Source: Prunella strophiata (taxonomy: Eukaryota; Chordata; Aves; Passeriformes; Prunellidae). From it: DNA of 64,000 nucleotides. The stretch lies in assembly GCA_036583965.1 (NCBI GenBank), contig JAZBQD010000013.1, forward strand, positions 13,664,618 to 13,728,617. Reading direction: 5' to 3'. The notes under the pieces were generated by a model. That model was given only the letters and a program-made list of their open reading frames with translations. It had not been told where the DNA came from and did no database searches. The translations under genes and the position numbers were made by a program. Positions 15,901 through 51,787 of this stretch are shown in pieces. Position 1 is the stretch's first letter. Every line of letters starts with the position of its first letter.

Positions 15901-18900
15901 CAAATTCATTATGAGGAATGGCATTTGGCAATGAAATGGAGGACTGGTGGAAGATGACAGTAAGTCTGTTACCTGTGTCTCTGTCCATCAGAAGAAATAA
16001 TCAGCAGCAGGAAACAGCAAAGCATTACAGAATGATGCACAAGTAACTTCTGTTCATGTGTAATTCAAAATTAACCTGCTACCAATTTCTCTTGGCTGTT
16101 TATTTAATATCAAAGCAACAAAGGACTTCTAGAACAAAACCCAATTACAAAAAACAGGCAAGTTTCTCTAACTTGCTTTTCAGGCAAGTTTCTCTTCTAA
16201 CACTATTCTTTTCACTTTCCTGCAGAAGTCAAACCATTTTAAGATCAAGGTTAAGAATATTTTTGTTGGAAAATTGGTATTTAAAGACTAAAAATAGAAC
16301 AGATTTATGTACATGTCAGGACAAAGCTTATGAACACAAGAGAGGACTTGAAGGACTTGTCAAGCCCTTTACATTCATGTTGGTGAACACAGAATTGCAC
16401 TTCTGCATGAAGTGGAAGGTGCACACAGCCTTGCTGACACACCTGTTACTCCACTAGGGCTGAGAATCCAAAATCCCCAAGGAATTAACAATGTTCCACC
16501 AGACCAGAGATGTTCCAGCATATTGCAATTAATCATACTGAAGAAAATATTAAATATACTGACTGGAAGGCAAGTCTGTGGTCAGCTATTGAAAGCATAA
16601 GACATTGAGATGGTCAATCTGTCCACAACAAAACAAGAACCTCCAGTGATTAACTTCCCTATATTCCAACCACAGTCCAGAATCCCCCTAAATCTGCACT
16701 ACCTGAATATAATCACCTGCTCCTGCACACTGCAAAGGGGAAGAGTGAGGAAAGGCCATGGCATGCATGTGTTTGAGCAGGCCCCTGTACCTGAGTCTCC
16801 ACAAACATTGCCATGTCCATGAACATCTCGTGCAGCTCCCGGATGCTGGACTCCAGCTTCATGATGTCCTTGTGGCGGGACTCGATCTCGTTCAGGGCTT
16901 GCCTGGTGATCTGGGAGTCTGAAATGATCTTGGGGACAAGGGACAGGGACACGCCTGAGTGCCAGCAGCCTCGAAAGAGCAGGGCAGCAGAACAGAGGAG
17001 ACCTAACTGGCCCAGAAATACATACATCAGAAGTGAAAATGGAAGGATTACCACTCTCTAACATTTCCTCCAGCTCCTCATCAGTGGTGGTCTTTCCAGC
17101 TAGGATAAAAACAACAATTAGCATGAAAGGCTAATGACAAATTTGAGAAGCACACAAGAAGCAAAATTTTCTCGTAGTTTGCCTAGTTCCCCTGTTTGCA
17201 TTCCCTGTTTCAGCAATGTATATATTCACTTCTCCAGAGCACATTAAAAAACAGACTAATTTTAGACACCTTCCAAGGCAGATACTGTACTTCAAAGTAA
17301 AGTCAGGAACCTTTCTAAATACTCCTAATAATGAATTGGAAGTAAATCATATGTGAGTCAGTCAACAAATGATTAAAGCACATGTAAGAGCAGCACTGAT
17401 TTTGTGCCAGATGAAGTGTCCTTGCAGACAAAAATGGGACCACATAAAAAGAGCTTTTATGCTGTTAGGCAGGTTAATTTTGGAATGGCTTTTAATAACA
17501 CTCGCTGTTTCAGAATGCAGCTTTTCTTGATGCTTCATTTAAAGTTGCAACATTGGAAGCAAAGGAAAAAGATAATTTCTTTAATAATTTTCAATCTAAA
17601 GGAAATAATTGGGTTTTTCTCTCTTTTCTTTACAGCTGTTCTAAAAAGAGCAATATCAGGGAGTTTGTGCCATGCAGTAAAATTGTTTGTTTTCTGTCAC
17701 ACCCTCCGAGATGCTGTCCAAGACCTCTGAAGCTTTGCACGTTACTGAATAAGGAACAAGGGAGGCACTAGCAAACACGTGATTTGTTTCAGGAGCACAG
17801 GGGTCACTCACTGATCTCCAGCTGCCTCTGGATGCGGCCCTTGCTGCGCTCCCGGAACAGCGTCTGCGTCTCGTTGTACTCCGTCATCACCTCCACAAAC
17901 TTGTGTGCCAGCACCGAGTGCTGCCAGGGACACACAGACAGGCCAGGGGGACACACAGACAGGGCAGGGGGACACACAGACAGGGCAGGGGGACAGACAC
18001 ACAGACAGGACAGGGCAGGGGGACACACAGACAGGGCACAGGGGGACAGACACACAGACAGGCAGGGGGACACACAGACAGGCCAGGGGGACACACAGAC
18101 AGGGCAGGGGGACACACAGACAGGGCAGGGGGACAGACAGACAGGGCAGGGGGACACACACAGACAGGGCAGGGGGACACACAGACAGGGCAGGGGGACA
18201 CACAGACGGGCAGGGGGACAGACACAGACAGGGCAGGGGGACACACAGGACAGGGCAGGGGGACAGACACACAGACAGGGCAGGGGGACACACAGACAGG
18301 GCAGGGGGACACACAGACAGGCAGGGGGACACACACAGACAGGGCAGGGGGACAGACAACAGACAGGGCAGGGGGACAGACACACAGACAGGGCAGGGGG
18401 ACAGACACACAGACAGGGCAGGGGGACACACACAGACAGGGCAGGGGGACAGACAGACAGGGCAGGGGGACAGACAGACAGGGCAGGGGGACACACACAG
18501 ACAGGGCAGGGGGACAGACACACAGACAGGGCAGGGGGACACCAGACAGGGCAGGGGGACACACAGACAGGGCAGGGGGACACACAGACAGGGCAGGGGG
18601 ACACCACAGACAGGGCAGGGGGACAGACACACAGACAGGGCAGGGGGGACAGACACAGACAGGGCACAGGGGGACAGACACAGACAGGGCAGGGGGACCA
18701 CAGACAGGGCAGGGGGACCACAGACAGGGCAGGGGGACACACAGACAGGGCAGGGGGACAGACACACAGACAGGCAGGGGGACAGACACACAGGACAGGG
18801 CAGGGGGGACAGACACAGACAGGGCAGGGGGACACACAGACAGGCAGGGGGACCGACACAGAGACAGGGCAGGGGGACAGACACAGAGACAGGGCACGGG

Positions 18901-21797
18901 GGGCAGACACAGGACAGGGCACGGGGGGGACAGACACAGAGACAGGGCACGGGGCAGCAGTGGGGACAGACAGGGACAGACACGGGGACAGACACGGGGA
19001 CAAGGCATCAGGACAGCAGGGACAGACATGGGGACAGGGCATCAGAGAGGGACAGACATGGGGACAGGGCATCAGAGAGGGACAGCAGGGACAGACAGGG
19101 ACAGAGAAGGGTGTCAGAAAGGGCCGTTTCTGTCACACAGCAACAGCCCTGCAGCACACCTCACAGTGGCACTTACAGCCCAACAAAGCAGCACAGCAGC
19201 TCTGCAATGAGCTCAGAACAGCTGAACTCTCTCTCCACTGCAGAAGCCACTGATGCTCTCCAGGCTGAAGGGATCCTACCTGTGTTTTTCTGATCCTGAG
19301 GTCCACTGATGTCCGATTGGCATGTTCACCCTGATCAAAGCTCTGCTCAATAGCTGACAACAACACAAGAGTTCAGAGTCAATGTAGTTATTCAACTACT
19401 TTGTAAATATTATTATTACTTTTTAAAGGTACAAGTTCCCCAGAGACATGTGTAACAATTTCAGGGGAGAGGGGTGGCAGTGATATACAAGTAAAATTTT
19501 AAAATAATTTTGATAATTGGTAGAGATCTTTAAACACAGTAACTGCTTCAATCATACTCTTAACAGAGACACACTCCTGTCTATTACACTGGAAAAATTT
19601 CAAAAGGTGTCATTTTGCATTTAATTTTCTTCCAAAATATCATCTCCCCAAAAAGCACTTCAGTTGCAGAAGACATTTCTATGTGGAGGAATTACTTTGC
19701 ATTGTCATTTTCTAGGTTATTTCTGAAAGCAAGGAGTTTTATTTCTCCTCACAACTTACCCTTTAGCCTGGCCCGGATTTTATTAGCAATCTTCTTGATT
19801 TCCTCATTTAGTTCTTCAAGTTCTTCTTTAGTTCCTTTAAAAAAAAAAATTTAACCCGTTAATGATTGATTATAGTAAGTCAGCAAGAGTCTACAAACCT
19901 GGCTTGTAATCTCAGAACTTCATTCAGTACAACTATGCAGAGCTGAAGTTTATTATCCCCCTAAATACTTTAACTTTACTTTTTACTAAAGTACTTTTAC
20001 TTTAAAACCATCAGATTCTTGCTTCTTATGACAAGCTTACACCTGGGAAATGTTATTATTACCAAATCTTCAATGAAACCAGGTGACAAACAGTTTTGTT
20101 AACACTTTCAGGGTAATGTTAATTTGCTAGTCAGAAGTTAAATGCTCCTGAGCTGTAAGTACAGGTGAAACCACAGATTTATCTCCCCTTTTCTGCACGT
20201 GTACCACGTGTGCACTGCTTTAACCCTCAGTGACATGGCTGTGCCAGGCACCCCCTGTGACACTCTGAGGGGAATGAGGACATTCTCCCACCAGAGCATG
20301 CATGGAGAGCTGTGCACAGCCCCAAGCTCACAGGTGCTGACCCTGACACAGCCACATGAACCCTGGTTACACCTGAGATCCGCTCAGAAACCAGCCTGCA
20401 AAATCAGCTCTAGGAACACAAGCACACACCAAGGAAAACGGGACAGGATAAAGTAACACCCCAAGTTCAGTTTGCACCAAGGAGATGGAGTCACAAGATA
20501 AATGTTGAGCCAGCATTGCAACATTCAAACAAAAAACACCTCAGCATCTTTGCTTCCCTTTTCTGTGAGCCTGGCCACGAGCAGGGACACGCCTGGAGCC
20601 AGCAGGGCTGGGAGCAGGGACGGGCCAGGGCTCTGTGCTGGGAACTGCACCTCCAGCTTTGGGGAAAGCCCCCAAAACCAGGGCTCCACGTGGAGCTGGA
20701 AGTACTGCAGCAGCAGCAGCTGGCTCTGGTGCCACACAGGACCCTGGCCCCAAGGAGGAATAAAGGGAACACCTGACAGCACAAGCTTCAGCTGACAACT
20801 TCAGCATTCTCACAGATTAGACGAAATGTAAGTAACCTCTCTGTTTCTGAAGGAAAAAAACCCATATTAAACTGAGTTTTGGTCTAGGAAAGGTTTGGAT
20901 GATGCAAGAAATATTCTGAACACACAGTTTTTCAATTGAGACCTAAAAAAGGTCAAAATAAACAAATGAAACTATTAATTCAATATAAAAAATGAAAATG
21001 TTAACTCAGTGTAACATTTTGCATTCTGAACACCTGAAGTTCTATTCCTATGGACAGCTAAAATAAACAAACAGTATTTCAGAATATCTATCCCCACTTA
21101 TGTGACATCTTAAAAATTATTACTCACTTCCTTCAGGATTTGGTGCTGACAGGATAATGCTGTGCTGCTTCTTCACTTCTTCCACATTTTGTGCTATTTT
21201 TGCTATGTTATTTCTAATTTCCTCAACCTAGAGGAAGAGAAATATGGCAAAGAAGACATTAGAATAATTTGGGGCCGATATTTTTTTAAAAACAAAAAAA
21301 CCCTGCTAAAAAAAACCTAAACTATTTCATTTCTTTCATTTCTGTAAGTAGCACAGAATGAAATCCCAGCAGAAATGTCAACATTTAAACAGTCTGTAAT
21401 TATTTTTTTAAACTAAAACCTGGTATTGTTTATAGCAAATATATTCTGAATGGCCACAAACATAAGTGCTAATATTCCTAATAAACAACTACTTTAAAAT
21501 TTCATTAGCAAATTTCTCGTTGATAGGGAATTAAAAACATTTCTCTGCAATAAACACAGAAAATACCCTGAAATAAACTAAAATAAAGCATTACCAACAT
21601 TTGTTTTGGCATACAATTACTAACTCTACTGGGGAGGATGTGTAGATGAATTGTTAGTTACTGAAATTAAAAGGCACAGAGAGGCAACAGTCAGTCTTTA
21701 GCCATGGTGAAAACTGTAACTTTACCTGCTGGAAAAAGTCATCCATAAAATGGTCTTTTTCGATGATAACTGTCTCTCCATCTTCATTTCCTTTATA
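12863..21797 (-). CDS. STX2: Syntaxin-2 (STX2), exons 2-11, spliced gene
   Basis: STX2 (epimorphin) is a plasma-membrane Qa-SNARE that pairs with SNAP-23/25-type proteins and VAMPs in exocytosis, acrosome reaction and cytokinesis. Nine constitutive or alternative coding exons plus a second terminal exon are seen. Joined exons 2-9 give 753 nt (251 codons) with all phases matching. Order: Habc helices (exons 2-6), linker (exon 7), SNARE motif (exons 8-9) with the zero-layer glutamine as the last codon of exon 8 (FVETQ), then a tail anchor from exon 10 or exon 11. With about 10-12 residues from exon 1 the protein would be about 288-290 aa, the family length. Exon 1, which encodes the N-terminal peptide, was not found. 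Sequence matches STX2 rather than STX1/3/4 (for example [10 protein letters not shown], and both STX2 tail anchors). Confidence 0.96.
12941..14175 (-). other. STX2: STX2 intron 10
   Basis: Intron between the cassette exon and the terminal exon. It starts GTAAGTAA on the sense strand (donor at 14175) and ends CTGCAG. No other exon is seen in it. Confidence 0.8.
14176..14303 (-). CDS. STX2: STX2 exon 10: cassette exon with tail anchor A
   Basis: The acceptor TTTTTTTGACAG is followed by an open frame starting [12 protein letters not shown] and ending [11 protein letters not shown], with TGA at 14222-14220. This matches the other STX2 transmembrane anchor. A near-perfect donor GTAAGTAA follows 44 nt after the stop, so the whole exon is 128 nt, not divisible by 3. 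Inclusion ends the protein here. Skipping joins exon 9 to exon 11 in phase 0. The donor call is from consensus only. Confidence 0.93.
15349..15459 (-). CDS. STX2: STX2 exon 9: C-terminal half of SNARE motif
   Basis: 111 nt, 37 codons, phase 0 at both ends. It begins [18 protein letters not shown] and ends with the basic juxtamembrane linker KYQSKARR. This is the layer +1 to +8 part of the Qa-SNARE helix, followed by the lysine/arginine-rich stretch that contacts acidic lipids. Splice sites are CAAG acceptor and GTATGT donor. Confidence 0.98.
16791..16928 (-). CDS. STX2: STX2 exon 8: N-terminal half of SNARE motif
   Basis: 138 nt, 46 codons, phase 0. It begins [20 protein letters not shown] and ends MFVETQ. 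The final glutamine is the ionic zero-layer residue of Qa-SNAREs. Heptad hydrophobics are visible through [18 protein letters not shown]. Confidence 0.98.
17026..17099 (-). CDS. STX2: STX2 exon 7: Habc-SNARE linker
   Basis: 74 nt. It completes a threonine codon with exon 6 and encodes [20 protein letters not shown] then FTSD, the acidic linker that holds syntaxin in the closed form. The donor is GTATGT and the acceptor is CCTAG. Confidence 0.97.
17812..17920 (-). CDS. STX2: STX2 exon 6: end of Habc domain
   Basis: 109 nt encoding [20 protein letters not shown] then [16 protein letters not shown] (Hc helix). The donor is GTGAGT. The acceptor CTGGCAG is directly preceded, on the sense strand, by more than 1 kb of minisatellite with no adenine. 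See findings. The exon is GC-rich at third positions compared with exons 7-9. Confidence 0.98.
17923..19110. repeat. 21/25-bp T-free minisatellite in STX2 intron 5
   Basis: On the plus strand it is built of ACACACAGACAGGGCAGGGG-type units of 21 bp, with 23-25 bp versions containing an additional GACA/CACA. About 45-50 copies give way past 18,950 to diverged copies (ACATGGGGACAGGGCATCAG types). There is not one T on the plus strand from 17923 to 18960. The array starts one base from the exon 6 acceptor AG. Confidence 0.97.
19114..19114 (-). promoter_or_regulatory. STX2: Candidate distant branch point for STX2 exon 6
   Basis: Sense-strand TTTCTGACACC contains CTGAC, a strong match to the branch-point consensus. 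It lies 16 nt after the last AG before the exon 6 acceptor. Weaker CTGAT candidates have their A at 19072, 19042 and 19008. All are more than 1,080 nt from the acceptor. Function is inferred. Confidence 0.5.
19280..19353 (-). CDS. STX2: STX2 exon 5: Habc domain
   Basis: 74 nt. It completes an alanine codon with exon 4 and then reads [20 protein letters not shown] then RKTQ, the Hb-Hc region. It ends in phase 0. Acceptor TTGTCAG, donor GTAGGA (weaker than the others). Confidence 0.98.
19760..19834 (-). CDS. STX2: STX2 exon 4: Habc domain
   Basis: 75 nt encoding [20 protein letters not shown] then ARLK (Hb helix). Acceptor is a T-rich tract ending AAAG, donor GTAAGT. Both ends are in phase 1. 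Confidence 0.96.
19855..21127 (-). other. STX2: STX2 intron 3
   Basis: Apart from the T-tract acceptor of exon 4, it is mixed unique sequence. A GC-richer stretch around 20550-20780 holds open frames on both strands but no recognisable protein. Confidence 0.7.
21128..21227 (-). CDS. STX2: STX2 exon 3: Habc domain
   Basis: 100 nt encoding [20 protein letters not shown] then [13 protein letters not shown] (Ha helix and loop). Acceptor CCTAG, donor GTGAGT, ends in phase 1. Confidence 0.98.
21726..21797 (-). CDS. STX2: STX2 exon 2: N-terminal region
   Basis: 72 nt, 24 codons in phase 0: [20 protein letters not shown] then FFQQ. Same length as the human exon. It carries the DHFMDDFF signature that precedes the Ha helix. 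Acceptor TTTGCAG, donor GTAAAG. Confidence 0.97.
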
Positions 21798-22065
21798 CTG
21801 CAAAGACAACAAACACAAATCTGTGACACTGACCCCAGGACACGGCTCTGAGGAAACACCTCCTGCTGCAGCACACACACTTCCATCAGCAGCCTGCAGA
21901 GCCAGGCCAGTTTTCCTTTGCTGAGGGCTGTAATCTGAAAGCAAACACAGAGAGGCCACAGCAGCCAAGTGGCTCCTGGGGAGCAGAGAGAGAACCCGGG
22001 GCTGTGGGTACCAGGGCCAGCAGCAGCACAGAGCCCGTGCCCAGCTGCTGCTCCGGGCACCCACT

Positions 22066-22330
22066 AACTCATCCTCAGGTGGCTGATAAACCAGAGCTCT
22101 GCCATAGCCCTGGGCAGTCACAAACTCATCCTCAGGTGGCTGATGAACCAGGGCTCTGCCATAGCCCTGGGCACACTGCCACAGCCCAGGTCAGCCCGGC
22201 TGGGCTGCACTGAGCCACAAACTCATCCTCAGGTGGCTGATGAACCAGGGCTGTGCCACAGCCCCGGGGCAGCCACAAACTCATCCTCAAGTGGCTGATG
22301 AACCAGGGCTCTGCCACAGCCCCGGGCCAG
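22066..22330. repeat. Four-copy 57/97-bp repeat
   Basis: Copies beginning AACTCATCCTCAGGTGGCTG start near 22066, 22123, 22219 and 22278. Each is followed by GATGAACCAGGGCTCTGCCA-like sequence. The third spacing is longer because of an inserted GC-rich segment. Confidence 0.9.
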
Positions 22331-23956
22331 CTGGGCTGGGTCCATGGATCTCAGTTTTTATCACACAATTAAGTGATCAATTGGGAAAAGACACAATTAA
22401 CGTGCAGCAGAGAAGGGAAAGAGCCCAAGCTTGACTTCTTTCATCCTCTCCATGGAGCACACACTGTTTGAAGTGCACTGAATCCAAATTAGAACAAAAT
22501 ACTATCCTTAACATACAGTCAACTGGTTATCTATTAGGAAAAAACAAACTACAAGATAATTGGTATTAAGGGATTTTCATTCCAAGACACCTTTTTGTCT
22601 TACAAGGCCATCTGATCTTGTAACACCCACTTTCTGCTCCTAACCTCTGATCCTATTACCCAAGAAGTTTAGTTCTGGTTGTCTTAAGTTACATGAGATA
22701 TGCATTGTTTGCATGACAATTCTGCAATTTAATCCAGTGTCAAACACTGCTATTATCTTATAGCAGTGTCAATTAAGAAAATCTAGGAGTGCCCCAAAGC
22801 CTGAGGGAGAAGTTACAGACTTGGTGCCAGCTCCTCTCCTGCAAACTCAGGGAATGCAGAAAGCCCTGGGGCAGGACCCATCTGGGGTTTGTGCTCAGGG
22901 GAAACAAAGATGCCCCAGGAGAAACACAGGAGATGTCACTGCCCTCCTGGGCACTCCACTCAGGGCTGGCTGGCACTGAGCACTTGGTAAGTCACTCATT
23001 TTAGGGAGATAACGTTAGAACTCAATTATCTGTCCTCACAGATTGCCATCAATTAACAGTCTTGCTTAACACAAATAAGGGAGGAAGTCTGTGCCCCAAG
23101 GAAGCCACCCACAACTTCACCATTCCCAAGACTGCACTGCTACTAAGCCACAAGCTCTAAGTTAATGTTTAAGAAGGAGCTACATTTTAAAGACATTTAA
23201 TTTCATTATCTATGCAAAAGAATGCTTTCTGTTTATATTTACTGAATAAAGAATAATTTTTCTGCTTGTTCATAACTGCATCCTATATTTAGCTATTAGA
23301 ACTAAAAATAATGAAAATACCATCTACTAAGGCATTCAGAGTGTCAGCTTTTAGTTTGATTAGATCTCAGTAAAACATGTAACACCTGAGTGAATCCTAA
23401 ATGACTGAAAGACAGAAATGTGACTCAGGAATCTGTCTGCAGATGCTCAGCTGGGAGGCAGCTGACCATGACTCCCCAGCCCACAGCCCGTGCCATGTGC
23501 ATGTCACTGTCCTACTTGGGTGCAATGACACCACTGACGGATCAATTTGTTCAAGGATTTATGGACAGCCTACCTCAGTCATCAGCACTTGAGACACCTG
23601 AGAAATTTGTCAACCTCTGTTCGCTGTTTTCTTAAATCATCTCTTACCTAAAATACAGCTCAGTTGCTGACTCTCTTCAACTGATGTGCTTTTGTGCCTC
23701 TTTTGACAAGCACACAAGTGACCAAGAACTCACTTTTATCAGAGTTTAGCAGAAACACACTGCTCTCCCTGGACTTCACCTCCTCAGTACAAGCAGTATC
23801 ACAAGAAGCTGATAAAAAGTTTCACGTCAATGCCAAGAGCAATCTAATAAAGTCTGTTTGCAGCTCATACCTTGACCTTGGGACTCAAAGTCTGGGACAC
23901 ACAGCTCCATAAACATTCAGAGACTGTAAAATGCATCCAGCCCTGTCAGGGGTTTG
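22331..23956. other. Probable STX2 intron 1, no gene seen
   Basis: Unique AT-rich sequence upstream of STX2 exon 2. Nothing is recognised in it. Confidence 0.5.
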
Positions 23957-24489
23957 TGCTGCTGTGGCTGGGACAGGGTTAACTCTCTTCCCAGAGGCTG
24001 GCACGGGCTGTGTTTGGGAGCCGTGTTTGGGGTTTGTGCCGGACCAGGGCTGATGACACAGGGGTTTCAGTCACAGACCTACAGAGGCAGGGCCCTTTCT
24101 GCTCCCCTCCAAGGGGCTGGGGGGCACAGATGGCAGCAGCAGTCCCCAGGTGACCCAAGGGACACTGCAGACCACATGGCATGATGCTCAGTGCACGAAG
24201 CTGAAGCAGGAAGGAAGGGGGGCACCTTTAGTGTTCGGGCATTTTGTCTTCCCAAGCCACTGCTATGTGTGACAGCTCTGCTTTTCTGGGAATGGCTTGA
24301 CCCCTGCCTGCCCATTGGAAGCAGGAAGGAATTCCTTTTCCTGCTTTGCTTGCGTGCAGCTTTTGTTTTACCAATTAAACTGCCTTTATTCTCAATCCAT
24401 GAGTTTTCTGACTTCTGGAATTCTGCCCCATCCCACTGGGGCGAGCGAGGGAGCAGCCATGTGCTGCTCTCGCTGCCAGCAGGGTTAAA
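23957..24489 (+). mobile_element. Solo LTR of an avian-type endogenous retrovirus
   Basis: About 530 bp resembling a common avian ERV LTR in overall order. It has a GGGACAGGGTTAACTCT block near the start, a run of GGGGCTGGGGGGCACA, a CTTCCCAAG block, an ATTAAA polyadenylation signal at 24374-24379, a CCATCCCACTGGGG block near the end, and a terminal GGGTTAA. No gag, pol or env frames lie beside it, so it looks like a recombined solo LTR with many substitutions. The match is from memory. Exact ends and target duplications were not determined. It lies in the inverted orientation relative to STX2 transcription. Confidence 0.7.
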
Positions 24490-27400
24490 GTACAGAAATT
24501 CCCACATTGTCATTTCTCAGCTCCAAGCAGATGCTATCCTGATGGTTTATGAAGCTTCTGTCACTTCCACTACCTTACAGAACTGCAGAAATAACTCAGG
24601 CTGGAGATCTCTTTGTAATTACTGACCTCTGGAACTGGAAACAGCTTTTGACTGAAAAACGTGACTATGGCTTGCCCTTGAAATTCGCTCAAGGTTGGCC
24701 GTTTCTCAGAGCAGATCACGTGCACTCCTGTGGCAGGCTGCAAGGACCAGAGCTGACCATTCCCTGGGGAATCAGCCCCCAGGAGAACCTTGCAGAGTGT
24801 ACAGCCTCTCCTGACAGCACCCGTGTGTGCAGAAACCCTCCAGCAGCCCAGCAGGGCTTGCAGGGGGCCGGGAGCCGAGGCAGGGCAATCATTAACAGCC
24901 CAGGCAAGCAGCTCACCCTGGCACAGAGGGCACAGGGCTCATCCTCCCAGCCTGACTCAGGCAGAACAGCAGCCCTGTTCTCCTGCTGCTGCAAAGCTTC
25001 ACCTGGGCTGGCTTCTGAGCCACCCTGTTCTGACAATTCCAACCTCTGTGACTGGGGCGTTCCACCTGCCCCTCAGCACCTCTGAGTGACTGGCCAAGAA
25101 AGCACTTAGAAAAAAATCAATGCACTTCTGCTCTTACAGGTCCTTCTTAGAAAAAGCTGCAGTCAAATGTGGACTTGCAGATTGCTATGTATTACTCATT
25201 TTTCAAAGATTACATGTAACAGATCTTTGCTAACACGAGTAAACAAATATAAAAATCAATATTTTAAATTATTCACCTATCAAGCATGAAAAATGGACTC
25301 TAGCAGACAGGTCTGCATCCACTTCATGTCACAAGGGGGAAATTTTGGAGCCATGTGGACAACACAGCCCAAACCTGAGATCTAAACCAGCACTCTGCTT
25401 GAGCAGAGGTTTATGTCTAACCTTCTGAAATGACAGAACAACAAAAAGAAAGTATGAGGAAGTTTTATTACCAGACTTTAAAAGGCCATCTGTTTGTAAT
25501 ACCTGAAGTTAGCTAAACGTGCTCAGCTGAACATGTGAACATGGACTGTACAGCTCTTTTAGAGCCATTTCAGACAGACCTGTATCTGAGAACAGCAAAC
25601 CACTGAAGGCTGGGAGCACATCTTGCAATCATAGCTATGTACTACTCATTTTCTTCCTCCCTAAACAGCTGCTGAAAACAGTGAATTGGATCAGAGAACC
25701 TTCTTATCTTACACTTATTTGTGCTCAAAACAACTAAAACCAGTCTGGGATTTGCTCACTCAATTGTCCCATTAATTGTATTAAAAGACAATTCAAACAC
25801 CTTAAAGAAGTTAATTTGGGCCTGCTTAGAGTAATTTAGAAATGACATTAAAATAACCCCCTAAAGTTGAACAAATACAATTATGGTTGCTGTCTTCTGA
25901 AAAAGCACATACTTTACAAAACTCCTTTGAGCTAAGAAAACAAGAGGAAGCAGCATTATCTGAAGGCTATATAATCTGAATGTCATCAACCACTTCTTTC
26001 TCCAGCAACTAAACATAGCCTAAACATACTGCATTAACAAAAGTATCTGCCAGTTATGTTAATGTTGTGTTAATGAGCCACAAACACTGACGGGCAGCAT
26101 TTCTCCCTCCTCTTCATGGCGATCTAGGAAAAACTAACAACAAAATATTCTGCTTGCTGCTCGGTAAAAGGCAGGAACACACAAATGAGGTCACAGGAAA
26201 TGATAATTTCTGCTGAAGGCAGTGAATGGCGTGCTCAGTGAAATCAGGCCAGTGCAGGCTGGGATCTTTGGGACTCCTTTGCACCACAGAGGCTCGGTGG
26301 GGCTGGAGAGGGGTGAGGTAGGACCAAAGGAAACAATGAAACCCTCGTGCTCAGGAAAAGAGGCAAGCCGCAGTTATTTCTGAAGAGTCTGCAGGCCGAG
26401 GCCTGTTTGAAAACCACAGTGTCTATGTTCTACCCTTCATGATTTAGCCAAATGCAATACAATGAAACTACATGAATACAGCTAAACACTTTGGAAAATG
26501 GGCAAGCAAGTGCAAACACATTATTTCTTCAGATTCACTATTCCTTTTCAGAGCACCTCATCCATGTGTCAAGCATCTCTGTTCAAAGCATTCATTCTAT
26601 GAAAGGAAAACCACTTCACAAAATCACTGTATTTCAGTATTACAGATAAAGATGTAAGATGGAAGCTGCTACTTCAATCATCTGCCTGTGGAAATGGGAA
26701 TATTCATCTCCCTTGGATATGCAGCTTCACAAAACTTCAGGTCAACCACACACTTGTAATTGTGATGAAACATAGACTAGTAACTTTCACCTTCATTTCA
26801 TGTTTAAATATTTTCTTCATTAGAAGAAAATTTTTAAGTCTCTAAGCTATTTATTAATTCTACAGGCAGTAAAAATGGTATTGATGCACACATGAAGCAC
26901 TTCAGCAATACTGGCCGATACGTATTTAAAAACCAGCCCACTGCAGTGATGTTTTCAGACGTCAAATACTAAAGCTGGCTTAAAAATTCCTCTGTTCAGC
27001 TGCATGAAACACTTTTAACCCTGTCAATGGGGGGTGTGGCAGGGTGTGGAGTCGGTTTCTTCCATTTACAGAAACACAGAACAGGATTAAGTCTGCGGGT
27101 ATAGAATTATAAATATAAAGCAAATTTGGATCACTACTGTTGCTTCCTCAAACTGGGAAGCATGCACCAGCACCGAAATTTGGCACGAGTTCCCACAACC
27201 TGGACATGTTTAGAAACAGGGAAAGGGAATAACTATGTCTGAAAGAAATGACACTGTTTTTTGGCATGACTCCAAAACATCATTCCTGGTAGAGAAACTG
27301 TAATTTAATAATCCCAAAACTCTTCCAATGCCAACTCATCCTTTCAGAGAGGAAGACAAAGAGACTGGTAATTCCATCACTAGAGATGGAGCTTCCAAAA

Positions 27401-27740
27401 TGTATTTTATGATCCAGAAGATGAAAGAGCCTCTGACCTGAACGCAGCTCAACACAGCCCAACTTCTACACATACGTGGAGTACTGGAACTATCACAGGA
27501 ACTCCTGTGTGTTCTCCATTTCCACTTCTTTTCAGGAAAAAACCAAAACAAACCCAAAACAAAAAACCTCAAGTATCCTTTTATTTTACCCAGCCATATC
27601 CTGTTGCAGACAGACTGATGGTGCCTGTGCCCAGACTCTCCCTTCTTTTTTGGGATACTGTTTCCAAAGCACAAGCAAGGGAAAGGAAAGGCGCGCATAA
27701 ACAGAGGCAGCTACCATTTTGTAAACACGCGGAAAATGAG
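24490..27740. other. Probable STX2 intron 1, no gene seen
   Basis: AT-rich unique sequence with a GC-richer patch near 24700-25080. Searched by eye for the short first coding exon of STX2 on the minus strand; none was found. Confidence 0.5.
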
Positions 27741-27744
27741 GCTT

Positions 27745-27950
27745 GCAGAGCGCTTTCCTGCCGCACCTCGGCCCGAGAGCTGCGGGCGGCGGAGCCCGGC
27801 CCGCTGCAGGCCCGGGGCAATCCGCCGGGACTCCGCGGCGCTCGGCGCGGCCCGGGAGGAGCGGAGCGCACAGCCCGCAGGGCGGCCCCGCGCCGCGCAG
27901 GGAGCCGGCACCCCGCGGGAGCGCGGCCCTCCCGGCGGGCGGGGAGAGCC
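27745..27950. promoter_or_regulatory. CpG-rich segment, candidate STX2 promoter
   Basis: Very high GC and CpG density starts abruptly here, on the side from which STX2 (minus strand) should be transcribed, and merges into the 13-bp G-rich array. STX2-type housekeeping promoters are CpG islands. No ATG resembling the STX2 start is visible, so the assignment is positional only. Confidence 0.4.
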
Positions 27951-29935
27951 GGGAGCGGGCACGGGGAGCGGGCACGGGGAGCGGGCACCGGCGGGCGGGG
28001 AGAGCCGGGAGCGGGCACGGGGAGCGGGCACGGGGAGCGGGCACGGGGAGCGGGCACCGGCGGGCGGGGAGAGCCGGGAGCGGGCACGGGGAGCGGGCAC
28101 GGGGAGCGGGCACGGGGAGCGGGCACGGGGAGCGGGCACGGGGAGCGGGCACGGGGAGCGGGGAGAGCCGGGAGCGGGCACGGGGAGCGGGCACGGGGAG
28201 CGGGCACGGGGAGCGGGCACGGGGAGCGGGCACGGGGAGCGGGCACGGGGAGCGGGGAGAGCCGGGAGCGGGCACGGGGAGCGGGCACCGGCGGGCGGGG
28301 AGAGCCGGGAGCGGGCACGGGGAGCGGGCACGGGGAGCGGGCACGGGGAGCGGGCACGGGGAGCGGGCACGGGGAGCGGGCACGGGGAGCGGGCACGGGG
28401 AGCGGGGAGAGCCGGGAGCGGGCACGGGGAGCGGGCACGGGGAGCGGGCACGGGGAGCGGGCACGGGGAGCGGGCACGGGGAGCGGGCACGGGGAGCGGG
28501 CACGGGGAGCGGGCACGGGGAGCGGGCACGGGGAGCGGGCACCGGCGGGCGGGGAGAGCCGGGAGCGGGCACGGGGAGCGGGGAGAGCCGGGAGCGGGCA
28601 CGGGGAGCGGGCACCGGCGGGCGGGGAGAGCCGGGAGCGGGCACGGGGAGCGGGCACCGGCGGGCGGGGAGAGCCGGGAGCGGGCACGGGGAGCGGGCAC
28701 CGGCGGGCGGGGAGAGCCGGGAGCGGGCACGGGGAGCGGGCACGGGGAGCGGGCACGGGGAGCGGGCACGGGGAGCGGGCACGGGGAGCGGGCACGGGGA
28801 GCGGGCACGGGGAGCGGGCACGGGGAGCGGGCACGGGGAGCGGGCACCGGCGGGCGGGGAGAGCCGGGAGCGGGCACGGGGAGCGGGCACCGGCGGGCGG
28901 GGAGAGCCGGGAGCGGGCACGGGGAGCGGGCACCGGCGGGCGGGGAGAGCCGGGAGCGGGCACGGGGAGCGGGCACCGGCGGGCGGGGAGAGCCGGGAGC
29001 GGGCACGGGGAGCGGGCACGGGGAGCGGGCACCGGCGGGCGGGGAGAGCCGGGAGCGGGCACGGGGAGCGGGCACGGGGAGCGGGCACGGGGAGCGGGCA
29101 CCGGCGGGCGGGGAGAGCCGGGAGCGGGCACGGGGAGCGGGCACCGGCGGGCGGGGAGAGCCGGGAGCGGGCACGGGGAGCGGGCACCGGCGGGCGGGGA
29201 GAGCCGGGAGCGGGCACGGGGAGCGGGCACCGGCGGGCGGGGAGAGCCGGGAGCGGGCACGGGGAGCGGGCACCGGCGGGCGGGGAGAGCCGGGAGCGGG
29301 GAGAGCCGGGAGCGGGCACGGGGAGCGGGCACGGGGAGCGGGCACGGGGAGCGGGCACGGGGAGCGGGCACCGGCGGGCGGGGAGAGCCGGGAGCGGGCA
29401 CGGGGAGCGGGCACCGGCGGGCGGGGAGAGCCGGGAGCGGGCACGGGGAGCGGGCACCGGCGGGCGGGGAGAGCCGGGAGCGGGCACGGGGAGCGGGCAC
29501 GGGGAGCGGGCACCGGCGGGCGGGGAGAGCCGGGAGCGGGCACGGGGAGCGGGCACGGGGAGCGGGCACCGGCGGGCGGGGAGAGCCGGGAGCGGGCACG
29601 GGGAGCGGGCACGGGGAGCGGGCACGGGGAGCGGGCACCGGCGGGCGGGGAGAGCCGGGAGCGGGGAGAGCCGGGAGCGGGCACGGGGAGCGGGGAGAGC
29701 CGGGAGCGGGCACGGGGAGCGGGCACCGAGAGCGGGCACCGGCGGGCGGGGAGAGCGGGGAGCGGGCACGGGGAGCGGGCACGGGGAGCGGGCACGGGGA
29801 GCGGGCACGGGGAGCGGGCACGGGGAGCGGGGAGAGCCGGGAGCGGGCACGGGGAGCGGGCACGGGGAGCGGGCACGGGGAGAGGGCACCGGCGGGCGGG
29901 GAGAGCCGGGAGCGGGCACGGGGAGCGGGCACGGG
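27945..29935. repeat. 13-bp G-rich minisatellite, G-quadruplex type
   Basis: Unit GGGGAGCGGGCAC (13 bp) in long runs, interrupted by GGGGAGAGCCGGGAGC and by CGGCGGGC blocks that together recur as a larger unit. On the plus strand G-runs of 3-4 are separated by loops of 3 nt, fitting the G-quadruplex pattern throughout. Open frames on both strands exceed 800 codons. They are repeat by-products, since three 13-mers make 39 nt. Confidence 0.97.
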
Positions 29936-30140
29936 ACAGGAACGGAGACAGGAAAGAAAGCGGGGAGCGGGCACGGCAGAACGGGCACAGAGAGCGGGGA
30001 ATGGGCACTGCGGAACGGGCACGGAAAGCCAGTAATGGGCACAGAGAGCGGGGAATAGGCACGGCGGAACGGGCACGGAAAGCCAGGAACGGGCACAGAG
30101 AGCGGGGAATGGGCACGGTGGAACGGGCACCGCCGTTCTG
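29936..30140. repeat. Diverged edge of the 13-bp array
   Basis: Longer degenerate units such as GAACGGGCACGGAAAGCCAG and AATGGGCACAGAGAGCGGGG. They look like older, less homogenised copies at the array boundary. Confidence 0.8.
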
Positions 30141-31884
30141 GAACGGGCTGGACACATCCGGACCCGGCCCTGTGTCACCTGCGGCAGGTGGCCCTGCCAT
30201 CTCCCTTTTCCATCCCAGGTGCGCTGGGGTTCTGTGAATGCACCAGGGGCGCTCGCAGAGAAATCCTCGGTGCGCACCAGGGAATTCCCATGCCGCGAGG
30301 GATCCCCGCGAGGAATCGTACCTCGGTCGTGGGAGATTGTCACGAGAGAAGCAGCTGTAAAAAGGAGTGCTCTGGTTATTTTTCAGTGGTACAGGCTCGT
30401 GTGTTTGTAGGGCAGAGCACGGACTGTGGAGGGCAGCTCCTTCACACCGCTCCTCACCTGCATCTCCAGACGCTTTGTACCTGCTGCCTTCTGTGTGTTT
30501 ACCTGTGCCAGACTTGCTAAGTTTGGTCACACTTGATCCTAAGATACAGGAAATGTAAAGAAAGGCCTTTTAAAAGTAATTGTTCTGCTGATTACCTACA
30601 GATCTCACGGACTCTAATCTTTCAGGCAGTGATCTAACACTGCTGAATGTTTTGCTGCCTTTGCTGAATGGGGTTATCTGGAGCAGATGTTTTGTGCATC
30701 CTCTGAACTGAACACTTAATTATACATGCTGATAAAACAGATGCTAAAAACTAGATTCCACATGGTAATTTATCTTTTTAACAATTAAATAAGTGTTTGC
30801 CAAGGAGCTCAAATGCTATGATAATGGAATTTTTAATTATTCCAAATTAAAGTGCTAGATAGCTTGCAGGGAAAAAGTAGTTCACTAATAAATTCGTTAC
30901 AATATTAAGAAATAACAAAAGCACAGTGAGTGTTATATACACAATTACAGATTGCTTCCTCCCCGTGTTTATATTCTTTAAAACTGCCAAACTCCACTAA
31001 TATGGCTTTATGGCCTCCTATTTATAAACACATTTCTGTTTGTCAGGAGGAGAGGTGGAGTTCACAAGGGTTTTACCAGGATAGCACTGTGCTGAGAAAA
31101 TAAAAGATGAGTTGCATATTCTGAGAAAATAATCCTGACACCTAGAGGCGCTCAGCAAAAATGCTAAAAGCCACACAAACCCAACTCATCGCAAAAAGGG
31201 AAGGCAAATTCAATGTGCCAGTGATTTTTCCAAGGAAATCTCATGCAACATTTGGATTGGCATTACACTATCAAATAAACAAAAATTACAGCACACTCTA
31301 GCCACTCTTGTAAAGCTTTGTGTATTTTTTGTGTCTATGTCAGAGGAAATTGACAAGAAATAAACTACATTTGTATATATCACCTGCCATGAAATACCTT
31401 CCTTGTCAATTCCATTCATTGAGATATATGTAAAAACGTATCATTTATTTATTCTAGATTATGGGGACAGCAACAAAGATAATAAAAGTAATTTAAGTGT
31501 ACTGGATTTAAAAAAAAAAAAATACCAGAGGCCTTAAAAATCAGAGCGAACCCATGAACTTGGTATTTATAGACATATGCAAAACTCGTAGTTCTTCGAA
31601 TGTCAGTTTTCAAACTTTTTTTCACTGATGTTTGGACAGTTTTGAGATCTCCCTTGGAGAACTATTCTAAATGCAAGGCTTACAAAACAACTTTTGCTTT
31701 TTTTACTGTACTCTAGTGAATGGAGGTCAGCGTGTTTGAAGAATGTAAAATCACATTGTGGCACATTGAAGGAAAGCCCCTTTGCCCACAGCCCATTGTA
31801 CCTGAGAGCTGTTCAGTTAAACCCTCCTGCTGTAAAAGCTCTTTATTAATCCACACTGGATGCAGTTGAACAGCTTTCCTAACT
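30141..31884. other. Intergenic between arrays, no gene seen
   Basis: A GC-rich start (to about 30330) and then AT-rich unique sequence. No exon is recognised. Confidence 0.5.
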
Positions 31885-34540
31885 AACTACGTGCCACAGC
31901 AGCTGTGTGACCCTCACCAGGACAGCTCGGGAGTGACCACAGCTGCCACAGGCTGTGTGACCCTCACCAGGACAGCTCGGGAGTGACCAGAGCAGCTGTG
32001 TGACCCTCACCAGGACAGCTCGGGAGTGACCACAGCAGCTGTGTGACCCTCACCAGGACAGCTCGGGAGTGACCACAGCTGCCACAGGCTGTGTGACCCT
32101 CACCAGGACAGCTCGGGAGTGACCACAGCTGCCACAGGCTGTGTCACCCACACCAGGACAGCTCGGGAGTGACCACAGCTGCCACAGGCTGTGTGACCCT
32201 CACCAGGACAGCTCGGGAGTGACCACAGCAGCTGTGTGACCCTCACCAGGACAGCTCGGGAGTGACCACAGCAGCTGTGTGACCCTCACCAGGACAGCTC
32301 GGGAGTGACCACAGCAGCTGTGTGACCCTCACCAGGACAGCTCGGGAGTGACCACAGCAGCTGTGTGACCCTCACCAGGACAGCTCGGGAGTGACCACAG
32401 CAGCTGTGTGACCCTCACCAGGACAGCTCGGGAGTGACCACAGCAGCTGTGTGACCCTCACCAGGACAGCTCGGGAGTGACCACAGCAGCTGTGTGACCC
32501 TCACCAGGACAGCTCGGGAGTGACCACAGCAGCTGTGTGACCCTCACCAGGACAGCTCGGGAGTGACCACAGCAGCTGTGTGACCCTCACCAGGACAGCT
32601 CGGGAGTGACCACAGCAGCTGTGTGACCCTCACCAGGACAGCTCGGGAGTGACCACAGCAGCTGTGTGACCCTCACCAGGACAGCTCGGGAGTGACCACA
32701 GCTGCCACAGGCTGTGTGACCCTCACCAGGACAGCTCGGGAGTGACCACAGCAGCTGTGTGACCCTCACCAGGACAGCTCGGGAGTGACCACAGCAGCTG
32801 TGTGACCCTCACCAGGACAGCTCGGGAGTGACCACAGCAGCTGTGTGACCCTCACCAGGACAGCTCGGGAGTGACCACAGCAGCTGTGTGACCCTCACCA
32901 GGACAGCTCGGGAGTGACCACAGCTGCCACAGGCTGTGTGACCCTCACCAGGACAGCTCGGGAGTGACCACAGCAGCTGTGTGACCCTCACCAGGACAGC
33001 TCGGGAGTGACCACAGCAGCTGTGTGACCCTCACCAGGACAGCTCGGGAGTGACCACAGCAGCTGTGTGACCCTCACCAGGACAGCTCGGGAGTGACCAC
33101 AGCAGCTGTGTGACCCTCACCAGGACAGCTCGGGAGTGACCACAGCAGCTGTGTGACCCTCACCAGGACAGCTCGGGAGTGACCACAGCAGCTGTGTGAC
33201 CCTCACCAGGACAGCTCGGGAGTGACCACAGCAGCTGTGTGACCCTCACCAGGACAGCTCGGGAGTGACCACAGCAGCTGTGTGACCCTCACCAGGACAG
33301 CTCGGGAGTGACCACAGCAGCTGTGTGACCCTCACCAGGACAGCTCGGGAGTGACCACAGCAGCTGTGTGACCCTCACCAGGACAGCTCGGGAGTGACCA
33401 CAGCAGCTGTGTGACCCTCACCAGGACAGCTCGGGAGTGACCACAGCAGCTGTGTGACCCTCACCAGGACAGCTCGGGAGTGACCACAGCAGCTGTGTGA
33501 CCCTCACCAGGACAGCTCGGGAGTGACCACAGCAGCTGTGTGACCCTCACCAGGACAGCTCGGGAGTGACCACAGCTGCCACAGGCTGTGTGACCCTCAC
33601 CAGGACAGCTCGGGAGTGACCACAGCAGCTGTGTGACCCTCACCAGGACAGCTCGGGAGTGACCACAGCAGCTGTGTGACCCTCACCAGGACAGCTCGGG
33701 AGTGACCACAGCTGCCACAGGCTGTGTGACCCTCACCAGGACAGCTCGGGAGTGACCACAGCAGCTGTGTGACCCTCACCAGGACAGCTCGGGAGTGACC
33801 ACAGCAGCTGTGTGACCCTCACCAGGACAGCTCGGGAGTGACCACAGCAGCTGTGTGACCCTCACCAGGACAGCTCGGGAGTGACCACAGCAGCTGTGTG
33901 ACCCTCACCAGGACAGCTCGGGAGTGACCACAGCTGCCACAGGCTGTGTGACCCTCACCAGGACAGCTCGGGAGTGACCACAGCAGCTGTGTGACCCTCA
34001 CCAGGACAGCTCGGGAGTGACCACAGCAGCTGTGTGACCCTCACCAGGACAGCTCGGGGGTGACCACAGCTGCCACAGGCTGTGTGACCCTCACCAGGAC
34101 AGCTCGGGAGTGACCACAGCTGCCACAGGCTGTGTCACCCACACCAGGACAGCTCGGGAGTGACCACAGCAGCTGTGTGACCCTCACCAGGACAGCTCGG
34201 GAGTGACCACAGCGGCTGTGTCACCCTCACCAGGACAGCTCGGGAGTGACCACAGCTGCCACAGGCTGTGTCACCCACACCAGGACAGCTCGGGAGTGAC
34301 CACAGCTGCCACAGGCTGTGTCACCCACACCAGGACAGCTCGGGAGTGACCACAGCAGCTGTGTGACCCTCACCAGGACAGCTCGGGAGTGACCACAGCT
34401 GCCACAGGCTGTGTCACCCACACCAGGACAGCTCGGGAGTGACCACAGCAGCTGTGTGACCCTCACCAGGACAGCTCGGGAGTGACCACAGCTGCCACAG
34501 GCTGTGTCACCCACACCAGGACAGCTCGGGAGTGACCACA
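31885..34540. repeat. 43/50-bp minisatellite
   Basis: About 60 copies of a 43-bp unit that runs CAGCTGTGTGACCCTCACCA then GGACAGCTCGGGAGTGACCA then CAG. A 50-bp version has CTGCCACAGG in place of CAG. Homogeneity is high in the centre and lower at the right edge (CACCCACACC variants), where it runs into CpG-rich DNA. Confidence 0.97.
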
Positions 34541-35040
34541 GCTGCCGCAGCGCCCCGGAGCTGCGCGTGCCCGCAGGGCTGGACCGGGGCCGGGCTGCCC
34601 GGCCTGTGCAGTGACCGCTGTGCACCCGGAGAGGCGCCGAGTGCTGCGGTCAGCGCTGCCCCTCGCTCCACGAGGGCCGTGGAGGCGCTGGGTGTGCCCA
34701 GCAAGGGCCGGCAGGGCCACCAGAGGCGTGGGAAGCGTCCCTGGAGGAGCCGAGGGGGCTCAGGGCACCTCCTGCTCCCCTCAGCCCCGGCACCGTCAGC
34801 TGCGGGCAGTGCTCCCGCGGGCCTGCAGCGAGGCCTCCAGAGGAAAGGGCCTCGAGGCCACGTTCAGTTCAGACATTTGGAACGCTTTTGCGCGGTTCGG
34901 GTGGTCAGGCACTGCAAGAGGATGCGCAGCAGGGCGATGGAGTCACCATCCCTGAGGTGCTGAGGGTGTGGCGCTGCGGTGCGGACCGGCGGTCTGGGAG
35001 GCCGTGCTGGGCGGATGTTCTGGCCGGCTGGCCGCACAGG
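34541..35040. other. CpG-rich non-repetitive DNA
   Basis: GC-rich unique sequence between two arrays and upstream of RAN. It could be a shore of the RAN CpG island or a separate promoter. No exon is recognised. Confidence 0.4.
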
Positions 35041-35044
35041 GCCC

Positions 35045-35668
35045 TGCCCGGTGCCCGGGGCCGTGCTCCATGCCCGGTGCCCGATGCCGTGCCCGCTGTG
35101 GGGCCATGCCCGGGGCCGTGCTCCATGCCCGGTGCCCGATGCCGTGCCCGCTGTGGGGCCATGCCCGGGGCCGTGCTCCATGCCCGGTGCCCGATGCCGT
35201 GCCCGCTGTGGGGCCGTGCTCCATGCCCGGTGCCCGATGCCGTGCCCGCTGTGGGGCCATGCCCGGGGCCGTGCTCCATGCCCGGTGCCCGATGCCGTGC
35301 CCGCTGTGGGGCCATGCCCGGGGCCGTGCTCCATGCCCGGTGCCCGGGGCCGTGCTCCATGCCCGGTGCCCGATGCCGTGCCCGCTGTGGGGCCATGCCC
35401 GGGGCCGTGCTCCATGCCCGGTGCCCGATGCCGTGCCCGCTGTGGGGCCATGCCCGGGGCCGTGCTCCATGCCCGGTGCCCGATGCCGTGCCCGCTGTGG
35501 GGCCATGCCCGGGGCCGTGCTCCATGCCCGGTGCCCGATGCCGTGCCCGCTGTGGGGCCATGCCCGGGGCCGTGCTCCATGCCCGGTGCCCGATGCCGTG
35601 CCCGCTGTGGGGCCATGCCCGGGGCCGTGCTCCATGCCCGGTGCCCGATGCCGTGCCCGCTGTGGGGC
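35045..35668. repeat. 56-bp minisatellite upstream of RAN
   Basis: About 11 copies of a 56-bp unit containing CCGTGCTCCATGCCCGGTGC, CCGATGCCGTGCCCGCTGTG and GGGCCATGCCCGGG. It ends about 160 bp before the likely RAN start site. Confidence 0.96.
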
Positions 35669-36600
35669 GTGCCCGGTTCCCGGGCTCCGCGCCCGCCGCG
35701 CTCCGCCTCATGTTCCGCGGCCCCTGCCCCGGCCTCCCTACGCCTCCCAGCGCGCCCGCGCACCACGTACGGCGCGAAGTGGGCCCTCCCCCGCCCGCGG
35801 GCCGCGCGGCGTCGCCGTCCGGGTATTTGAACGGCGCTTCCGCCATTTCCCTGCGCCCGGCACGGAGCGAGGAGCGGGAGAGCCTCGGCAGAGGTACGGG
35901 CCCGGCCCGGGCCCCGCCGCCATCGGGGCACGCGTGGCCGCTCTGAAAGCGCCACGGGCGGGGGCGGGCGGTCACCGTTAGCTCGCGGCCGGGCTGGGCC
36001 GGGCCGGGCCGGGCCTGGGTGGCGGGAGGCTGCGCCTGAGGGAGCGTTGCGGCTGCGGGAGCCGAGCGCGTGGCGGTTTCTCGGCCCCGGGAGCGGGGCG
36101 GGGGAAGGGCCTGGGCCGTGCGCGGCTCGGTCCGCGATGAAAGGGCGGGCCGCGGTGCGAGGGGCGGCGAGCGGGGCTCCCGCGGCCCGGGCCGGGGGCA
36201 GGCGGCGCTGCTCAGTCATGGTGGTGGCTCATGGCGCGGAGCGCGCCCGGCCCGCGGCGTGCGGAGGCCCGGCGGGGCGGACCCCGCTCGGGAGCCCCGC
36301 AGGACCCGCCGCGGCCTCTCCCGAGCGGGCAGCGGCTCCATTGAGCGGCGGGATGCCGGTTCTGGGCGGGCCGGGAGGGCTCTCCGCCGATCGGGAGCGG
36401 AGGCGCGGCGGGGCCCGGCGGGCGCGGGGCCGGGGCGGGCGGGGGCGGCGCCGCCATTGCCGCGCGCGGTGCCGCCACACGCGGGCGGGAGGCGCCGCCC
36501 GGGCCGCCGCGCCGGGCCGGCCGCAGCTGCGAACGGCCCCTTCCGGCCGGGCCCTCCCGCGCTCGGCGCGCTCTCACGCTGCCATTTCCCCCGCAGACGC
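35669..36600 (+). promoter_or_regulatory. RAN: RAN CpG island and promoter
   Basis: Extremely CpG-dense sequence covers the presumed start site, exon 1 and intron 1. Just upstream of exon 1, TATTTGAACGGCGCTTCCGC (35824-35843) holds a TTTGAA motif that matches the cell-cycle CHR element. Next, CCGCCATTTCC at 35841-35851 resembles a YY1 site near the start of transcription. Element function is inferred from motif match. Confidence 0.8.
35840..35893 (+). other. RAN: RAN exon 1, non-coding (5' end approximate)
   Basis: The donor CAGAG|GTACGG closes a short GC-rich leader. Start is estimated from the promoter motif position, not measured. The coding start lies in exon 2. Confidence 0.65.
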
Positions 36601-36603
36601 AGC

Positions 36604-39802
<3,199 letters not shown>

Positions 39803-50644: not shown

Positions 50645-51787
50645 CAGCTCAGGAACAGGAGGGACCAGGTGAGCTCAGGAGCAGCAGGGACCAGGTGAGC
50701 TCAGGAGCAGCAGGGACCAGGTGAGCTCAGGAACAGGAGGGACCAGGTGAGCTCAGGAACAGCAGGGACCAGGTGAGCTCAGGAACAGGAGGGACCAGGT
50801 GAGCTCAGGAACAGGAGGGACCAGGTGAGCTCAGGAACAGCAGGGACCAGGTGAGCTCAGGAACAGGAGGGACCAGGTGAGCTCAGGAACAGCAGGGCAG
50901 GGACCAGGTGAGCTCAGGAACAGCAGGGCAGGGACCAGGTGAGCTCAGGAACAGCAGGGCAGGGACCAGGTGAGCTCAGGAACAGCAGGGACCAGGTGAG
51001 CTCAGGAACAGCAGGGACCAGGTGAGCTCAGGAACAGCAGGGACCAGGTGAGCTCAGGAACAGCAGGGACCAGGTGAGCTCAGGAACAGCAGGGACCAGG
51101 TGAGCTCAGGAGCAGCAGGGACCAGGTGAGCTCAGGAACAGGAGGGACCAGGTGAGCTCAGGAGCAGCAGGGACCAGGTGAGCTCAGGAACAGCAGGGAC
51201 CAGGTGAGCTCAGGAGCAGCAGGGACCAGGTGAGCTCAGGAACAGCAGGGACCAGGTGAGCTCAGGTACAGCAGGGCAGGGACCAGGTGAGCTCAGGAAC
51301 AGGAGGGACCAGGTGAGCTCAGGAACAGCAGGGACCAGTGAGCTCAGGAACAGCAGGGACCAGGTGAGCTCAGGAACAGGAGGGACCAGGTGAGCTCAGG
51401 AGCAGCAGGGACCAGGTGAGCTCAGGAACAGGAAGGACCAGGTGAGCTCGGGAACAGGAGGGACCAGGTGAGCTCGGGTACAGCAGGGACCAGGTGAGCT
51501 CAGGAGCAGCAGGGACCAGGTGAGCTCAGGAACAGCAGGGCAGGGACCAGGTGAGCTCAGGAACAGAAGGGACCAGGTGAGCTCAGGAACAGCAGGGACC
51601 AGGTGAGCTCAGGAGCAGGAGGGACCAGGTGAGCTCAGGAACAGGAGGGACCAGGTGAGCTCAGGAACAGGAGGGACCAGGTGAGCTCAGGAGCAGCAGG
51701 GACCAGGTGAGCTCAGGAACAGGAGGGCAGGGACCAGGTGAGCTCAGGAACAGGAGGGACCAGGTGAGCTCAGGAACAGCAGGGACC
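50645..51787. repeat. 26-bp minisatellite with splice-donor/E-box core
   Basis: Roughly 42 copies of a 26-bp unit, which reads GAGCTCAGGAACAGCAGGGA then CCAGGT. Variants have GGAGGGACC or an inserted CAGGG. Each unit contains CCAGGTGAGCTC. It meets the next array without a gap. Confidence 0.96.

Follow-up and report, generated by a model that had tools for sequence, protein, structure and literature searches.

An adenosine-free minisatellite in STX2 intron 5 of Prunella strophiata suggests a branch point more than 1 kb from the 3' splice site

The stretch of DNA analysed here (the window, 64,000 nucleotides) is part of a 14.16-Mb contig (C38) of the Prunella strophiata genome assembly, which comprises 1.05 Gb in 838 contigs. 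It carries STX2 on the minus strand and RAN on the plus strand, the latter from position 36604. Nine coding exons of STX2 (E2-E10) were placed using a human STX2 sequence as the query. Joined with exact junctions, they give a single open frame of 278 codons and a stop, and all eight introns between them are of the GT-AG type. The joined protein is up to 97-99% identical to bird STX2 records among the database matches (in the closest aligned birds, up to 0.993 for passerines and 0.968 for turkey), and residues 4-254 of the 278-residue product match solved syntaxin-1A structures. No counterpart of exon 1, which reads MKDRLADLAE in Parus, could be located in the window, including the minus strand of 21800-37500, from exon 2 to RAN; it may be absent from the assembled repeat-rich region, or it may have diverged. 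A search for known RNA families in the window gave none at gathering thresholds.

The interval between exons 5 and 6 contains the following features:
19280-19353, minus strand: STX2 exon 5, 74 nt, ending at a codon boundary, with the donor CAG/GTAGGATC
17921-19279, minus strand: STX2 intron 5, 1,359 nt, GT-AG, placed by exon matches and splice junctions
17921-17922, minus strand: acceptor AG of exon 6
17812-17920, minus strand: STX2 exon 6, 109 nt, the skipping of which would cause a frameshift
17923-18960, minus strand: stretch without A on the sense strand, 1,038 nt (C 438, T 351, G 249; 76% pyrimidine)
17923-19129, minus strand: AG exclusion zone, 1,207 nt free of AG

Intron 5 begins at the donor CAG/GTAGGA and ends at the acceptor GGCAG/CACTCGG. 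The original prediction was that this intron of 1,359 nt has no A on its sense strand over 1,038 nt, that the nearest A is 18961 and that no AG occurs from 19129 down to the acceptor. All of this was confirmed: the length follows from the exon matches and the GT-AG junctions, the plus strand contains zero T at 17923-18960, the nearest A is found at -1041 (-1 being the last intron base and the A of the acceptor being set aside), and the next upstream AG is 19131-19130. The A count of the whole intron is 36 per 1,359 nt, including one within the acceptor AG. From E2 to E10, the numbers of A-free nucleotides directly upstream of the STX2 acceptor AGs are 20, 13, 0, 16, 1038, 4, 0, 0 and 1, and the nearest A is at most 23 nt from the exon at all eight of the other STX2 acceptors found. 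In two paralogous syntaxin exons located elsewhere in the assembly, the nearest A, the acceptor apart, is at -26 and -29.

The AG exclusion zone upstream of exon 6, with its 1,207 nt, is well above the threshold of at least 100 nt used for exons with distant branch points. Beyond the zone AGs become dense again (at about -1211, -1230 and -1241), and the second AG-free interval is much shorter than the first, which is another mark of such exons.

Most of the zone is occupied by repeats of two kinds:
17930-18954, minus strand: minisatellite with a period of 21 and 44.9 copies
18963-19105, minus strand: A-containing repeat units with CTGAT sites, the A's being at 19072, 19042 and 19008, each with a U2-pairing score of -1.0 kcal/mol

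The A-free stretch is thus a tandem array and not a chance run of single bases. When cut at its GGGGA anchor, the array falls into 44 pieces, which differ mainly by small indels; lacking A, it is free of stop codons in every sense frame. The array might have been mis-assembled or mis-sized, or the true allele might have an A-containing unit near the acceptor, since many units vary by single-base indels, as from uncorrected long reads. However, some variants are common to neighbouring units (two adjacent CCACAG units), and the gene models of eight passerines, described below, break at the exon 5/6 junction, suggesting that the sequence is hard to assemble in other species too. An assembly artefact is regarded as very unlikely.

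The repeat is centred on the STX2 locus. In a search of the assembly, the counts of which are lower bounds, all 25 exact matches of a 20-nt core word were in this array, as were 31 of the 39 matches with at most one mismatch; the other eight near-matches were distributed between a single array on contig C82 (six) and contigs C60 and C149 (one each). By this core-word search, the repeat is of local origin in the sense used for avian intronic sequence stuttering. In the related array on C82 (C82:71241817-71242758) the core word occurs in a form with T, ACAGACAGGGCATGGGGACA, and the seed motif may thus not belong to STX2 exclusively.

On the donor side of the array, three adjoining units of about 30 nt keep their A's. 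These units align with four A-free units at 18846-18957 with a mean column identity of 59%, and three core units added to the alignment match only partly. The A-free units most likely descend from the A-containing ones via the loss of A in CTGATGCC and CCATGTC, a direction that we infer from the comparison of units. According to the original prediction, the minisatellite expanded between the branch point and the acceptor. The neighbouring A-containing and A-free units align as expected if the proposed order of events is right.

Long runs of this type are not restricted to intron 5. A second T-free array of the plus strand (27931-30001), with 2,071 nt longer than the intron 5 stretch, precedes STX2 exon 2 and is some 6 kb away from any STX2 acceptor that was placed; provided that exon 1 is situated on its far side, it would belong to intron 1. 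Among its 131 differences from a 42-nt unit, many of which are unit-type or alignment effects, none is a change to T. From the same contig, 22 stretches of 10 kb were sampled, and two of them had T-free runs of at least 1 kb (1,005 nt, and 1,916 nt clipped by the end of the stretch); around the paralogs, which lie on other contigs, neither of two 10-kb stretches contained a run of 80 nt free of A or of T. Because long T-free runs are common here, the lack of A can be taken as a property of these arrays. Splicing selection for an A-free unit is not needed as an explanation, the array at 27931-30001 being A-free as well, with no STX2 acceptor near. The unusual feature is that an A-free array abuts a 3' splice site, not its A-freeness itself. 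Other large arrays of the window are located at 31952-34542 (58 copies of a 43-bp unit) and 51786-55023 (180 copies of an 18-bp unit). On the same contig, about 14.6-16.5 kb before the start of the window, an array with an 11-bp unit, AGAAGGGGGGC, runs for at least 1.9 kb up to the end of the sampled stretch L025 (8085-10000).

Candidate branch sites were compared by their predicted pairing with U2, and two groups require attention:
19113-19120, minus strand: best predicted branch site, TTTCTGAC, of the yUnAy type, with the branch A at 19114 (-1194) and the lowest U2-pairing energy
17938-17964, minus strand: rival non-A candidates near the acceptor, U 17938 (-18), G 17943 (-23), U 17959 (-39) and C 17964 (-44)

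By this score, a crude one that allows any register of pairing, A 19114 has -6.5 kcal/mol, the lowest value among the 34 A's scored, and the next A within the AG-free zone has -1.1 kcal/mol. A 19114 is situated about 165-166 nt from the donor, and the AG-free zone begins 15 nt before it. The 40-nt window starting 3 nt past it is 82% pyrimidine, and the first AG after it is the acceptor of exon 6, 1,192 nt downstream. A 19150, which lies outside the zone, has a score of -5.9, but it forms part of an AG, and the next AG comes 19 nt later. U 18956 in ACUGCUGCC, where the A-free stretch has its upper end, reaches -8.6, the strongest value for a non-A base there; the unfixed register of the score is probably the cause.

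Between the acceptor AG and -1041 there is no A at all, and the candidates at -18 to -44 are moderate non-A sites. It is possible that U2 uses C 17964 (CTGCC), U 17959 (CTGTC) or U 17938, with the array acting as the pyrimidine tract. These non-A sites keep the spacing of the branch motif (yUn-y), and their U2 scores of -3.3 to -3.7 are better than those of all A's in the zone except 19114. The density of U is about equal before the acceptor (0.35-0.36) and after 19114 (0.38), the 22 nt before the exon 6 acceptor have the same pyrimidine share (64%) as those of the E2 and E4 acceptors, C and G branches are described for some mammalian introns in PMC10638238, and C and T account for 1.28% and 0.08% of the predicted bovine branch points in PMC8531310. 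On the other hand, non-A branches are rare. The 40-nt tract is also poorer before the acceptor (70% pyrimidine) than after A 19114 (82%), and the upstream A site scores better than the non-A sites, so that a non-A branch near the acceptor appears unlikely.

The preferred reading, about which we are a little more confident than doubtful, is that intron 5 is an AG-independent intron with a distant branch point at A 19114, the spacer of which arose by local repeat expansion. U2AF and U2 would recognise CTGAC, with A 19114, and the pyrimidine tract that follows it. The first step of splicing would produce a small lariat loop of about 166 nt with a tail of about 1.19 kb, and in the second step the first downstream AG, which is the exon 6 acceptor, would be used. 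The minisatellite would have expanded locally between the old pyrimidine tract and the AG. As its unit lacks A, the array adds neither a competing AG nor a stop codon, and, being A-free and almost unstructured according to prediction, it may serve as an inert spacer. An ancestral intron of about 200 nt is plausible, because the donor-to-branch distance of about 165 nt is like that of an ordinary short intron.

The folding of the spacer was predicted as well. The segment from 19114 to the exon (1,193 nt) folds at -31 kcal/mol, compared with -60 (SD 3.5) for 12 dinucleotide shuffles, and its energy per nucleotide is -0.026 as against -0.23 to -0.40 in 14 further segments taken from the minus strand of the window, some overlapping arrays. 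The RNA from the branch to the acceptor is accordingly predicted to be almost unstructured, and for this reason the distance between them is not expected to shrink by folding. A structure that would draw the branch point near the AG was considered and is not predicted.

In favour of the preferred reading, in which exon 6 would be included in the mRNA, the exon is open in the window, and 42 of the 48 bird records among the matches listed preserve its 5' junction. Two elements of the intron bear on the possible bypass of this exon:
19171-19176, minus strand: strong-looking cryptic donor GCT/GTAAGT (donor 19175-19176), 103 nt inside the intron
19130-19131, minus strand: nearest upstream AG, at about -1210

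The array might weaken the acceptor so that exon 6 is often bypassed, either by splicing from the cryptic GTAAGT donor to exon 7 or by use of the AG at about -1210 with an in-frame insert. Exon 5 extended to GTAAGT and followed by exon 7, without exon 6, is in frame and open in the window, and only one of the 18 upstream AGs, the one at about -1210, gives an open in-frame path through exon 6 (403 codons). The gene models of Parus major and Chloebia gouldiae lack exon 6 and have intron-like residues following exon 5, but they may only mean that exon 6 is missing from the assemblies or predictions. Both bypass products would presumably interrupt the Habc region of syntaxin, which counts against them, as does the predominance of intact exon 5/6 junctions among the listed bird records; frequent bypass of exon 6 is considered quite unlikely.

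The 48 bird records were recognised by their displayed names among the 120 STX2 matches listed (the best 120 of 3,836), a list that favours complete records; they were sorted into passerines and non-passerines by name, the broken ones by look-up. The exon 5/6 junction has less than 70% identity over 20 residues in six of them (Poecile, Parus, Tichodroma, Chloropsis, Calcarius and Hylia), that is, in 6 of the 26 passerine and none of the 22 other listed records. It is intact in the remaining 20 listed passerine records, that of Cardinalis having altered letters just before the junction. At the other junctions, taken in order, 0, 2, 2, 3, 0, 0 and 6 of the 48 listed records are broken, so breakage is not unique to exon 5/6. 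The three records broken at exon 6/7 are three of those broken at exon 5/6, and the six broken at exon 9/10 are other birds, in which alternative last exons may be involved. The exon 5/6 breakage stands out in being confined to passerines among the listed records and in touching exon 6.

A search with exon 6 replaced added two passerines without this exon, Chloebia and Melospiza; the resulting total of eight passerines is not a rate, the second search having been built to find such records. In five of the eight broken records, the residues past exon 5 look like a translation of the first part of intron 5 (VG...). Read most simply, these sequences mean that assembly or annotation of the junction is difficult in several lineages of songbirds, as it should be if they too carry the array; the splicing of exon 6 is a separate matter, on which they are silent. 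The occurrence of breaks in passerines and in none of the 22 listed non-passerines hints that the array is old.

The arrangement may be compared with that of known exons with distant branch points. Like PTB exon 11, alpha-tropomyosin exon 3 and GABBR1 exon 23, as described in PMC1431707, STX2 exon 6 has a long AG exclusion zone with dense AGs beyond it, and, by prediction, a strong branch site and a pyrimidine tract at the 5' end of the zone. Unlike those exons, the branch points of which are mapped at 100-400 nt (PMC1431707), it has no A for 1,038 nt, and its zone is mostly minisatellite. The experimental examples given there are alternatively spliced exons. The range of branch points stated in PMC10638238 is A-10 to A-400, so the distance proposed for STX2 is about three times the 400 nt of the mapped cases in both papers, which counts against the preferred reading. 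A predicted branch point at -566 is given for Fugu PTB (PMC1431707).

It had been stated at the outset that exons with distant branch points have reported distances of a few hundred nucleotides. This agrees with the mapped distances, but an AG-free zone of more than 1 kb has a precedent: human PTPRS, listed in 2006 for experimental verification, has a zone of 1,126 nt with candidates from -1079 to -171 (PMC1431707). Like STX2, PTPRS has an AG-free zone of similar length that fills most of a short intron. Unlike STX2, its zone holds candidate branch sites down to -171; the STX2 case is the stricter one, because no A occurs between the acceptor AG and -1041. The same source describes an AG-free repeat beside a human acceptor which implies no distant branch point, a good site being present there at -17. 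The interpretation proposed originally is supported in part, namely as regards the geometry, the gene model and the presence of a candidate branch site with its pyrimidine tract where the zone begins on the donor side. It has to be modified in three respects: a zone above 1 kb has a precedent, the lack of A need not be due to splicing selection, and a non-A branch near the acceptor is a rival.

According to PMC2991248, a larger predicted branch distance in human introns is accompanied by more exon skipping, and 0.44% of 183,187 introns have no TNA motif in the last 500 nt; introns without a canonical nearby site are therefore not unheard of. STX2 intron 5 is also similar to the 'megaPPT' intron 4a of OGDH (PMC7969005) in having a branch point near the donor, predicted in our case, and a very long pyrimidine tract. 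The OGDH intron is held at 118-131 nt in the birds and mammals covered there, platypus excepted, whereas the STX2 spacer exceeds 1 kb.

The closest likeness for the repeat itself is with the 'sequence stuttering' of chicken (PMC12954441), an imperfect local tandem expansion inside a bird intron that leaves the exons intact. The 21-nt unit of STX2 comes close to the lower limit of the unit lengths reported, tens to hundreds of bases, and stuttering occurs mainly, if not absolutely, on dot chromosomes (190 of 236 exon-stuttering introns), whereas STX2 is located on a contig of 14.16 Mb. The main text of that paper contains no word beginning with 'branch', whereas the STX2 array separates the likely branch point from the acceptor (PMC12954441). 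In the open-licence literature, no earlier report of a minisatellite in a bird STX2 intron was found, which is not proof of absence, and no earlier paper was found there that combines an AG exclusion zone, a tandem repeat, a branch point and an intron; the papers cited here were the nearest that the searches gave. Taken as a whole, STX2 intron 5 is likely to be a distant-branch-point arrangement made by local repeat expansion.

STX2 intron 5 can be seen as a natural experiment, in which the sequence by itself leaves no adenosine to serve as a branch within 1 kb of the acceptor. Either the distance from branch to acceptor is about three times the mapped values in the cited papers, or a vertebrate coding exon depends on a non-A branch. 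The predicted lariat loops differ accordingly, being about 166 nt for the distant A and about 1.3 kb for a non-A base near the acceptor. We give an even chance to the statement that this passerine intron is spliced normally from a branch A more than 1,040 nt away, most likely 1,194, via an unstructured A-free minisatellite; the array may be widespread in songbirds. If so, the spacing between branch point and acceptor would not be tightly bounded above provided that the spacer is AG-free, and a repeat could lengthen it freely. The case also suggests how a splice signal that is essential can tolerate the expansion of repeats in avian genomes, and why automatic gene models may fail at the junction of exons 5 and 6.
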